IMG/VR virus record: IMGVR_UViG_3300030419_004139 | Span: 1-23,438 of that record | Origin: a virus | DNA length: 23,438 nucleotides | Strand: one strand, 5' to 3' | Part shown: positions 3,100 through 7,306 of the stretch, piece after piece | Position numbering within the stretch: the first letter of the stretch is position 1 | Layout of the letters: every line of letters starts with the position of its first letter | The notes under the pieces: model-generated | Databases searched by the model: none | The model's input: the letters and a program-made list of their open reading frames with translations, nothing else | What the model was told of the DNA's origin: nothing | Program-made: the position numbers and the translations under genes

Positions 3100-4127
3100 T
3101 CTACACTCACTGCCTCCAAATACAATTCACGTAACATCTTATCCAACTGAATTTTATCTAAATCAGTAGATAAATTAGTTACATGATTGCTAATTATAGT
3201 TACAGTATCTTCAGTACCTTCCAATTCAGTTTCATCTTCAATTCTATCAAAATCCTCAATAATTGATAATTGTGCTGGATTAACCGCATACAACTGCTCA
3301 ACAACCGAATCGAACTCGTATGGGTCTTGTTTTTCGGAAACAACTAACCGCACAAATTTATTTCCATATGCATTATAATCTATCTCCAACCCCTCTGTAT
3401 AGTAAATTTTATGAAATAAATCATTAGGATTTTTAATGAATTCCAACTCTAGTGTTTCTGTATCAAAAATATGAAAACCCCTTTCTGTATTGTAGTCAGA
3501 CCACATCATCTCATATGGTGTACCTAGATAATAAATATGACCATCATCATTTTTCATGTGAAAATGACCTGAAAAAACCTTATCAAACTTAAGAAAATCA
3601 TCCCGTTCTAAACCATGTTCTGACCTCATCCCCTTAAACATCAGATACCCTGATAATTCTAAATGCCCCATTGCAATTTTAGCATCAGTCTTATCCATTG
3701 CTATATAAGAATCATAATCATTATCTGAACACAGCCATGGGAGTAAAAAGATAGATAAACCACCAATCGAAACGGTTTGTGCTGTCTCATAGACCTTAAT
3801 TAGAGGTGATTGACCATACAACTCAGCAACTGAATTCAGTTTTAATGTATTCTTGTAGTATGAATCGTGATTTCCAACCAAAATATGAGTCTCAATTGAA
3901 TTATCATGCAACCGATCCATGAAATTATGACGTAAATGATTCAATGTCAAAAAGGAAACTGACTTCCGTTTATCCATCAAATCACCTAAATGTACTACCG
4001 TTTTGATGTTATGTTCTTCCAAATATGGAAAAAACACACTACCGAAAAATTGATTAATATGCTCCTGTATTACTTGATTGTCGTTTCTTGCCCCAAAATG
4101 AGTATCCGTAATTAATGCAACCTTCAC
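3096..4127 (-). CDS. gp47: Recombination endonuclease subunit gp47 (Mre11/SbcD-like nuclease)
   Basis: This is the metal-dependent nuclease partner of gp46 in DNA end resection. The 343 residues (T4 gp47 is about 339) carry the calcineurin-type phosphoesterase motifs: DTHFG (8-12), GDLMDKR (48-54), the GNHDSY motif near 85-90, MGHLEL (153-158) and SGHFHM (186-191). All metal-binding Asp, Asn and His positions appear present, so it should be active. The ATG overlaps the gp55 stop and its stop overlaps the gp46 ATG, each by four bases, showing tight translational coupling along 55-47-46. Identification is secure. Confidence 0.96.
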   Translation of the reverse strand: MKVALITDTHFGARNDNQVIQEHINQFFGSVFFPYLEEHNIKTVVHLGDLMDKRKSVSFLTLNHLRHNFMDRLHDNSIETHILVGNHDSYYKNTLKLNSVAELYGQSPLIKVYETAQTVSIGGLSIFLLPWLCSDNDYDSYIAMDKTDAKIAMGHLELSGYLMFKGMRSEHGLERDDFLKFDKVFSGHFHMKNDDGHIYYLGTPYEMMWSDYNTERGFHIFDTETLELEFIKNPNDLFHKIYYTEGLEIDYNAYGNKFVRLVVSEKQDPYEFDSVVEQLYAVNPAQLSIIEDFDRIEDETELEGTEDTVTIISNHVTNLSTDLDKIQLDKMLRELYLEAVSVE

Positions 4128-4693
4128 TCCATAAACCTCTCTAATGATTTTTTGTTCTTCTTTCGTTGCTCTCGTTTTTGAACCATTTTATTCTCATAGT
4201 CCTCTACATCAAAACCCTCATTAGGTTTAACATGGTCTAATAACCCCTTATTATCATTATCATTTTCATCATATAATGCTACTCGTTTTTCCTCAATCAT
4301 TCTCTCAGATAATTTATGTTTAACGTATGCTTGCTTCTTTTCACGTTCAATTCTACGAACAAAGGCATAATAGATAATCTGAGTAAAATAGGCAAATGGG
4401 TTCTTAGATTTCTCTGGGTTGAAGTTAGAACAATACTGTAAACAATTTTCAATACCATCCCCAATCATTTCTTCTTTGTAAGTATAGTTGACGAAATTAG
4501 GTTTATTGGATAAATTCATAGCAATATCCATAAAGCACTTACCCATAAATTCAGTTGCTGGTGGAAGTCGGATTTCATCATACGGAACACCCTCCCTAAG
4601 ACCCCTTTTTCTTGCTTCATCCACCATCTCACGATATACAAGCATCTCAATATAAAATTTTTTATTATCAATATAATGTGCTTTTCTTGCCAT
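4124..4693 (-). CDS. gp55: Late-transcription sigma factor gp55
   Basis: T4 gp55 is a reduced sigma factor that directs host RNA polymerase to TATAAATA-type late promoters, working with the sliding clamp. The 189 residues (T4 about 185) include a sigma region 2-like core: a conserved acidic helix around YKEEMIGDGIENC (72-84), then NPFAYFTQIIYYAFVRRI (98-115), which corresponds to the -10 recognition helix, and a basic EREKK tail. The protein ends in KSLERFME; in T4 the C-terminal end binds the clamp, and this hydrophobic-acidic tail may do the same (inference). AAGGA stands 7 bases before the ATG. A consensus sigma70-like promoter lies 30-58 bases upstream, so gp55 is probably made early by unmodified host polymerase. 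The late promoters listed elsewhere are its likely targets. Confidence 0.93.
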   Translation of the reverse strand: MARKAHYIDNKKFYIEMLVYREMVDEARKRGLREGVPYDEIRLPPATEFMGKCFMDIAMNLSNKPNFVNYTYKEEMIGDGIENCLQYCSNFNPEKSKNPFAYFTQIIYYAFVRRIEREKKQAYVKHKLSERMIEEKRVALYDENDNDNKGLLDHVKPNEGFDVEDYENKMVQKREQRKKNKKSLERFME

Positions 4694-4722: not shown

Positions 4723-4751
4723 ATTATACCATAAAAAAATGCATTTGTCAA
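4723..4751 (-). promoter_or_regulatory. Consensus sigma70-type promoter for the gp55-gp47-gp46-purM operon
   Basis: On the minus strand TTGACA (4751-4746) and TATAAT (4728-4723) are both perfect matches, separated by exactly 17 bases. TGG directly before TATAAT also gives an extended -10. Initiation would fall near 4716, leaving a leader of about 20 bases before the gp55 ATG at 4693. This is a host-type early promoter, unlike the late promoters before the head and tail genes. Confidence 0.9.
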
Positions 4752-4763
4752 GTAAAAATAACC

Positions 4764-4792
4764 TTGACAATCGAAATAAAATATGGTATAAT
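4764..4792 (+). promoter_or_regulatory. Consensus sigma70-type promoter on the plus strand, antisense to uvsW
   Basis: TTGACA (4764-4769) and TATAAT (4787-4792) are perfect with a 17-base spacer and an extended -10 (TGGTATAAT). It stands back to back with the gp55 promoter, with 12 bases between the two -35 boxes. Transcription would begin near 4799 and run rightward into the uvsW coding region from its 3' end, where no plus-strand gene is visible. The product would therefore be antisense or a small RNA. Confidence 0.8.
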
Positions 4793-4807
4793 AGGTGTGT
4801 TGCACCT
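4793..4807 (+). repeat. Short inverted repeat at the plus-strand promoter start site
   Basis: AGGTG and CACCT flank the 5-base spacer TGTTG. The repeat covers the expected start point (near 4799) of the plus-strand promoter. It could be an operator or a small 5' hairpin. It has no T-run on either side, so it is a poor terminator candidate. A separate 15-base AT palindrome (TATAATA-C-TATTATA, 4817-4831) lies just beyond and overlaps the uvsW stop. Confidence 0.4.
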
Positions 4808-4826
4808 TAGAGGGGGTATAATACTA

Positions 4827-6296
4827 TTATAGTTTAAACTTCTTCATTCTATAATTAAACTTTTCACTATTGTATATCTTGATACGTTCAACTAAATGCT
4901 TGAGTGTATAGTTCTGGTATGATTTATGAGATAAGTCATCGGCAATATCAAAGAGATTAGCATTATTTTTCTTATCAGTTCGTCTTAATGCCCTTCCAAT
5001 AGACTGTAAATTACGTATACGAGATTTAGATGGACTTGCAAAAACAACATTATTGAGATTCCGAATATTAATACCAGTACTGTAAGTACCATAACTGGCA
5101 ACAATGACAACATTATCGTTGTTTTCTGCTTCTTCTCTGATTTGCTCCCTAACATCAGTTTTAACTCCGCCATGAATATATCGAACTATTTTACCTTCAA
5201 TTTCAGATAATAACCGATATAAAATATCCCCATGCTTTTCTACTAATTGATATAAGACTAACGTATTACCTGTTAATGCCGATACCATATTAGTTATGAA
5301 TTGATTTCGTCTAGGATTTCCAACAAGAAAATTTAATTCACCTTTGTAATCCATTGCCTTGACCTCTTTACATTCATCCTCAGTGTAATTCAAAACAATG
5401 CAATGTACATTTAAATCTGCCAAAACGTCAGTATCCATCAACTTTTTAGTTGTTGTTACCTGATACACTGGCCCGAATAGTCCTTCTAAAACCAATTGAT
5501 GTGTCTGTGTTCCATCCAGTGTACCAGTAGTTCCTACTTTATATTCAGAATTCACTAACTTGGTCATAATGGAAATTAGAGATTTGGATTTGAAACCATG
5601 TGCTTCATCACCAATCACCAATCCAAAATTCTCAAAAAACGTTTTTTTCAAACGATGAATTGACTGCCAAGTTGAAATAACCACTGGTTTATTAGTTTCC
5701 TTTTCATGACCAGAATAGATTCGATGACAGTTATCTTCAACCGACCAACCATTTGCAGTTGAATAGTCATGAAAATCCTTATACATCTGCTCAACTAATG
5801 AGGTAGTTGGAACTACGATTAGAGTAGGTAAGTTTAAATACCTAACCAACATATAAATGATTAGAGATTTTCCTGATGCTGTGGGTGAAACTAATAGTGA
5901 TTTTTTTCTGGTAAGTGCATGACGAACTGCATCCTTTTGATAATCACGAATTATCAATTCCTCACCCTTTGATTGTAGATGAAGTGAATCAATGAATTCA
6001 GATGAAACACTCACTGGTTCATACTTAAATTCATTTAAAAATACAACATGATAACTTCTCTGTTTGGCAAAATGCAATGCATGTTCTAAAAGTCCAGAAT
6101 ATAATTTCTGGTCGTATATCGAATAAAGTCGTATTTTCCCATCCCACAACTTTGAACGATAGGTTGGCATGAATTTATAGCCAGGTACATAAAAGGTAAA
6201 GAAGTCGCAAAGTTCTTGTGCTATACTGGGTTCACAGTTAAGTTTATTGTGAACCTCATCTATCTTTGAGACATATATAGTATCAGGAGACACCAC
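4827..6296 (-). CDS. uvsW: UvsW-type DNA/RNA helicase
   Basis: UvsW is a superfamily 2 helicase that unwinds R-loops and branched recombination intermediates, shifting replication from origins to recombination-dependent initiation. The 489 residues (T4 about 503) show an N-terminal domain ending near 115, Walker A SPTASGKS (137-144), VVPTTSLVEQM (161-171, motif Ia), DEAH (230-233), GTTGT (255-259, motif III), VASYGTYSTGIN (399-410) and QSIGRALRR (431-439, motif VI). The end, EKFNYRMKKFKL, is close to the T4 terminus. The longest frame begins with GTG at 6296, followed directly by a second GTG (6293); it overlaps uvsY by 14 bases, with GGAGAAAG upstream inside uvsY. Either GTG could be the true start. 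The gene follows uvsY in one transcript. Identification is secure. Confidence 0.95.
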   Translation of the reverse strand: MVSPDTIYVSKIDEVHNKLNCEPSIAQELCDFFTFYVPGYKFMPTYRSKLWDGKIRLYSIYDQKLYSGLLEHALHFAKQRSYHVVFLNEFKYEPVSVSSEFIDSLHLQSKGEELIIRDYQKDAVRHALTRKKSLLVSPTASGKSLIIYMLVRYLNLPTLIVVPTTSLVEQMYKDFHDYSTANGWSVEDNCHRIYSGHEKETNKPVVISTWQSIHRLKKTFFENFGLVIGDEAHGFKSKSLISIMTKLVNSEYKVGTTGTLDGTQTHQLVLEGLFGPVYQVTTTKKLMDTDVLADLNVHCIVLNYTEDECKEVKAMDYKGELNFLVGNPRRNQFITNMVSALTGNTLVLYQLVEKHGDILYRLLSEIEGKIVRYIHGGVKTDVREQIREEAENNDNVVIVASYGTYSTGINIRNLNNVVFASPSKSRIRNLQSIGRALRRTDKKNNANLFDIADDLSHKSYQNYTLKHLVERIKIYNSEKFNYRMKKFKL

Positions 6297-6714
6297 TTAA
6301 AAACTTTCTCCATTCTATTGCATTTTTTATATTCCAGTTTCTATTTTCAACGTTTTTTAAAGTTTTCTCTAGGAAATCCTTGATTGTAGAAACATATTCA
6401 ACCATATCAACTGCCTTTGCCAATTCAGGGTCTGCCTTTAAGTACATATCCAAATCTTGCTTCACTACCTTTATTCCAAATGGTGCTTTCTTATAAACCT
6501 CTGGGTCAGCATTACCCGAATAATATCTGTGCTTTTCTAATTTCAATTCATCATACTTGCGTTCAACTTCTCTTAGATGTAACTTCGTTTTCTGATACAT
6601 CTTAAGGTATTTATCATACAGGTATGGGGTTCTGAGGGATTCTCTGTCTAGTTCTGATTCTTCTATTCCTAAATCTCGTTTGGTATCATCAAAAAAATCT
6701 TCCAATGTTTTCAT
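6283..6714 (-). CDS. uvsY: UvsY recombination mediator
   Basis: UvsY helps load the UvsX recombinase onto single-stranded DNA coated with gp32, and it acts in recombination-dependent replication. The 143 residues (T4 about 137) are highly charged and helical. They include a long amphipathic region (about 30-65, TPYLYDKYLKMYQKTKLHLR onward) and the conserved C-terminal RNWNIKNAIEWRKFLSG (124-140), which I recognise from the family. GAGGTG lies 4 bases before the ATG and overlaps the stop region of the upstream gp3-like gene. The neighbours uvsW, 46 and 47 are functional partners, and uvsW overlaps its end by 14 bases. Its partner genes uvsX and 32 are not in this window. Confidence 0.92.
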   Translation of the reverse strand: MKTLEDFFDDTKRDLGIEESELDRESLRTPYLYDKYLKMYQKTKLHLREVERKYDELKLEKHRYYSGNADPEVYKKAPFGIKVVKQDLDMYLKADPELAKAVDMVEYVSTIKDFLEKTLKNVENRNWNIKNAIEWRKFLSGVS

Positions 6715-7274: not shown

Positions 7275-7306
7275 TAAAAAAGGGGGAGTCGTGAGATACT
7301 CCCCCA
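7275..7306 (-). terminator. Intrinsic terminator after the major capsid gene
   Basis: On the minus strand GGGGGAGT (7305-7298) pairs perfectly with ACTCCCCC (7289-7282) around an 8-base loop and is followed by TTTTTT (7281-7276). It begins 26 bases past the gp23 stop. This is a textbook rho-independent terminator and should end the abundant late capsid transcript. Confidence 0.9.

Follow-up and report, generated by a model that had tools for sequence, protein, structure and literature searches.

The window analysed here, a 23,438-nt IMG/VR fragment from a T4-like phage, carries every recognisable gene on its minus strand; those named by PHROGs encode phosphoribosylaminoimidazole (AIR) synthetase (purM type), gp46, gp47, gp55, uvsW, uvsY and the tail tube protein. 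The late sigma factor gene gp55 (4124..4693, minus; phrog_234, E = 7e-53) is separated by a gap of 133 nt from the uvsW helicase gene (4827..6296, minus; phrog_16, phrog_9690), behind which lies the gene for the recombination mediator uvsY (6283..6714, minus; phrog_231). Just downstream of gp23, a strong intrinsic-terminator-like hairpin on the minus strand (GGGGGAGT...ACTCCCCC followed by TTTTTT; 7282–7305) precedes the tail-tube, uvsY and uvsW genes and could limit read-through into uvsW. Within the gp55–uvsW gap, the plus strand carries a sigma70-type promoter (4764..4792) composed of TTGACA (4764–4769), a 17-nt spacer and TATAAT (4787–4792), with TGG at 4784–4786 forming an extended −10 (4784..4792). 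The original prediction of a perfect consensus promoter at this site is confirmed in the sequence, and with all recognisable genes on the minus strand the promoter is antisense, as had been proposed. The similar promoter reported alongside is an equally perfect TTGACA-17-TATAAT element with an extended −10 that faces gp55 (4723..4751, minus). Apart from this back-to-back pair, no perfect consensus promoter occurs in the 23.4 kb; 0.08 perfect matches are expected per dinucleotide shuffle and 0 of 100 shuffles contained two, in keeping with the earlier view that chance is an unlikely origin. From the spacing, the predicted +1 of the antisense promoter is G4799, the position given originally. Judged from sequence, transcription from this start would point into uvsW, the first antisense gene, and then uvsY, and we found no intervening terminator before uvsW.

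To define the conservation of the antisense promoter, we collected about 280 gp55 loci together with cultured reference phages, and scored promoter hexamers out of 12 in 145 dereplicated gp55-upstream gaps of 80–250 nt each alongside shuffled controls. Of the 145 gaps, 94% contain an antisense promoter with a score of 10/12 or better, compared with 6% of shuffles; 67% reach at least 11/12 (shuffles 0.6%) and 23% reach 12/12 (shuffles 0%), and the sense promoter of gp55 scores about equally. TTGACA/TATAAT-type hexamers at 16–18-nt spacing are thus present at the antisense site above chance. The original prediction was staked in part on conservation of the hexamers in relatives with the same junction, and they are indeed kept there. 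L088 and L089, the two close relatives whose sequence spans the gap, retain the −35 and extended −10 region, with TATACT in L089, while much of the spacer differs. The antisense promoter is present in cultured phages S-PM2, HTVC008M, Mosig, Syn19, S-SM2, P-TIM68, ACG-2014b, S-P4, S-CRM01, Bellamy and Syn1; all cultured cyanophages and pelagiphages examined share the arrangement, with a weaker site (10/12) in P-RSM6, and outside that family it recurs in Stenotrophomonas phage DLP6 and Sinorhizobium phage phiM7. The element is absent at about 20 loci with a gap below 25 nt, mostly with uvsW abutting gp55, and at about 20 loci with a 25–79-nt gap; these short-gap loci indicate that it is not essential and can be lost. 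No promoter or RNA is annotated at the site in any database record that we inspected, and we found no description of the element in the open-access literature; earlier experimental detection, for example among start sites mapped in Syn9, may exist. That the promoter module is real and conserved is well supported. Its retention across very different phages makes it probable that the antisense promoter has a function; we infer that it most likely controls neighbouring genes through antisense RNA or polymerase collision.

The antisense −10 is adjoined on its 3′ side by an inverted repeat that the original prediction did not foresee. In the window this dyad reads AGGTG-TGTTG-CACCT (4793..4807, plus; arms 4793–4797 and 4803–4807), with the predicted start at 4799 inside its centre. 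The corresponding dyads are AACTCT-GTCG-GGGGTT in S-PM2, AACGG-TGT-CCGTT in Mosig, AGGC-ATGT-GCCT in HTVC008M, CAGGA-ATG-TCCTG in phiM7, TCAGG-TGTCG-CCTGA in DLP6 and AGTG-TGATG-CACT in L088/L089, which differs from the window by one compensatory pair change. Between phages the arms co-vary and the centre stays TGT: this triplet occupies the start position (offset 5–7) in 92% of loci compared with 10% of shuffled sequences, and perfect arms of at least 4 pairs occur at 53 of 140 loci compared with 10.6 ± 3.4 after shuffling. Left and right arms pair with a mean helix of 3.42, compared with 2.45 (s.d. 0.08) for arms swapped between loci, a test thinned to 73 distinct left arms in which 0 of 200 permutations per replicate reached the real value. 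As a control, gp55's own promoters have TGT in 2% of cases, no folding excess and no start-site dyad. We know of no named counterpart of a co-varying start-site dyad. Just 3′ of it, a conserved GGGTATAATAC/GGGTATATTAC block (4809–4830) overlaps the uvsW stop, is found at the homologous L088/L089 positions and constitutes a second −10-like element lacking a −35.

We considered a hairpin at the 5′ end of the RNA as the main reading of the dyad and rejected it for two reasons: its loop would contain the predicted start, and, when arms were permuted in the thinned set, G–U pairs (possible in the antisense RNA) add no more than A–C pairs (sense RNA), the two contributing about equally. Folding energies alone favour the antisense strand. 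With +1 in the dyad centre, the RNA would carry the right arm only, and given also the G–U/A–C equality we read the dyad as a DNA-level start-site element, either an operator or an extruding hairpin. Its loop ranges from 3 to 8 across phages, with 15 and 16 bp both found within one arm type, and thus departs from the fixed half-site spacing of a dimeric repressor operator; such variation is easier to reconcile with extrusion, or with a partner that is flexible, than with a rigid dimer. As in such an operator, the inverted repeat is common to several, putatively co-regulated promoters of one genome.

Whole-genome scans revealed 1–3 copies of the promoter module per genome, with arms that are the same or closely related. 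There are two copies in S-PM2 (AACTCTGT), Syn1 (ACTCTGT), S-SM2 (ACCTTTGT) and S-P4 (AACC[T/A]TGT), three in ACG-2014b (AACACTGT) and Syn19 (AACC[A/T]TGT), and related AGCTATGT copies in Melnitz. Where annotations were read, the additional copies are in sense orientation, most of them ahead of cpeT or of small genes with no known function, and in several phages they lie near gp5, cpeT or gp25. This sense use of the same promoter type before early genes was likewise absent from the original prediction, and it indicates that antisense orientation is not an inherent property of the module. Strong intergenic promoters in 14 genomes, surveyed with crude gene calls, are mostly sense; the recurrent antisense one is the gp55 copy, found in 12 of 14 and the only antisense copy seen consistently, and in DLP6 no strong intergenic promoter other than the gp55-linked one was detected. 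We tentatively suggest, at clearly less than even confidence, a previously undescribed early promoter class with a start-site dyad (lineage-specific arms, centre TGT) that would control a small early regulon, including a conserved antisense promoter timing uvsW or origin use.

The 5′ neighbour of gp55 is either uvsW or a 130–280-aa protein annotated as methylamine utilization (phrog_471). The S-PM2 member of this group, p113 (L086:2957–3352; phrog_471, T4-GC139), matches the Pfam Sm_like family PF16243 above the cut-off, so the methylamine label is probably misleading. In most relatives this Sm-like gene lies between uvsW and gp55 and would be the first antisense target, with uvsW behind it; at the window junction there is no Sm-like gene. 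A few gp55 neighbours gave no BLAST match, but their sequences resemble the Sm-like family by eye. The idea that the promoter tracks gp55 whatever the neighbouring gene failed on these cases, as the uvsW operon is therefore nearby in the contexts seen. In S-PM2-type loci, the final six codons of the Sm-like gene, which adjoin the antisense start, are 0.82 identical at the synonymous level, compared with roughly 0.48–0.68 elsewhere. The antisense start region may require this conserved sequence; codon bias at the 3′ end could also account for the conservation.

The reading we prefer, and hold at close to even confidence, is that the site is a conserved host-sigma70 early-promoter module that acts in antisense through uvsW to hold its operon back early in infection. 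Early host RNA polymerase would start gp55-47-46 in one direction and an untranslated antisense RNA in the other, and the antisense arm would run through uvsW, or through the Sm-like gene and then uvsW. Polymerase collision, RNA pairing or both would keep uvsY–uvsW output low until the early promoters fall silent and give way to late transcription in the sense direction, and a factor or strand extrusion acting on the dyad could provide shared start-site control. Firing, start position, timing, silencing and the action of a factor or extrusion at the dyad are all elements that we infer. In T4, UvsW is a late product that unwinds the oriF and oriG R-loops from which early replication starts (PMC3016281), so early silencing would make sense, and silencing specific to uvsW is plausible. 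In marine T4-like phages, which lack MotA and AsiA, early and middle control has been described as unclear (PMC2984593). The module persists beside a late sigma gene and an R-loop helicase in phages as different as those of cyanobacteria, Stenotrophomonas and Sinorhizobium, and the antisense site offers a control point, open to testing, at which phages may turn to late transcription and to recombination-dependent replication.

The original prediction had envisaged an antisense RNA or small RNA, and a discrete small RNA was not borne out. Such an RNA, acting in trans or in cis with its own fold and terminator and possibly partnered by the adjacent Sm-like protein, would suit a strong orphan promoter, the PF16243 gene between uvsW and gp55, and the extra synonymous conservation in its last codons. 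However, structure from +1 to +44 shows no excess over dinucleotide shuffles, the loci compared hold no conserved antisense terminator or ORF above background, and neither the window nor its relatives match Rfam, so these searches gave the predicted RNA neither a described family nor a conserved fold. A terminator-like stem on the plus strand (6228–6256) is broken in three of five near relatives (L089, L090 and L091). Because the dyad's left arm precedes the predicted start, the RNA would be left without the hairpin, and the window junction lacks the Sm-like gene; we consider a small RNA improbable, by a slight degree less so than two other accounts. One of these is that a small early gene once diverged from here, or still does in some phages, and that the site is its remnant or an alternate leader, now mostly reduced to a promoter. 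In phiM7 the divergent promoter and dyad do precede an annotated 50-aa ORF, gp36 (L332:802–954, minus; phrog_28687, function unknown), and the forward copies at other sites drive small genes. This account is opposed by the lack of a conserved ORF in the 140 loci other than phiM7, with an SD-like start in only 7, and a remnant without a product would not be expected to conserve hexamers and dyad over the long term, which makes the remnant an unlikely explanation.

The other account, to which we assign the same low likelihood as the remnant, is a replication-origin promoter, at which an antisense R-loop would prime leading-strand synthesis as at T4 oriF and oriG, the non-template strand, once displaced, would fold at the dyad, and UvsW would later remove the R-loop. 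T4 oriF lies at uvsY, minimal T4 origins consist of a promoter and an A+T-rich stretch, and oriE uses an early promoter (PMC3016281). The site combines a promoter with A+T-rich sequence, a pairing that does not discriminate an origin from other readings; the lack of an ORF in the AT-rich antisense region and the extra copies near gp5, cpeT or gp25 are in line with this account. T4 oriE, oriF and oriG coincide with compositional and strand switches, whereas the gp55 site shows no shift in GC or AT skew in 12 genomes, which weakens this account, and the genes on both sides run in the same direction. Skew and strand switches are a typical correlate rather than a strict requirement, as T4 oriA and oriC also lack them (PMC3016281). 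The forward copies, moreover, serve genes as ordinary promoters. In T4 oriF [ori(uvsY)] and oriE, as predicted here, promoter-driven RNA arises near uvsY/uvsW, and the oriE promoter is early; oriF differs in its MotA middle promoter and its strand and composition switches, neither of which holds at this site. Bidirectional promoters are common in bacteria, and the region is A+T rich, such that back-strand −35 and −10 matches might arise as a by-product of a divergent pair and have no role. The 94% occurrence compared with 6% in shuffles, the near-consensus hexamers and a start-site dyad that the gp55 promoter itself lacks make this the least credible explanation.

Antisense control of the kind we favour has a partial precedent in CfrI, an experimentally confirmed antisense RNA of about 225 nt at the S-PM2 psbA/homing endonuclease locus (PMC2984593, PMC5931967). 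Both cases involve antisense transcription, predicted here, that overlaps a sense gene on its 3′ side in a T4-like cyanophage-type genome; unlike CfrI, the present site lies at uvsW/gp55, occurs in many phages and has an RNA that is predicted. The module resembles ordinary host-sigma70 early promoters of T4-like phages in its hexamers, spacing and extended −10, and in the early-type genes that follow its forward copies, but differs in the antisense orientation conserved at one locus and in the co-varying dyad. P-TIM68 (W08, 152765) and P-RSM6 (W07, 14261) also share a repeated TTGACA-17-CATAAT promoter, AACTTTGTG, that is module-like and lacks the dyad.
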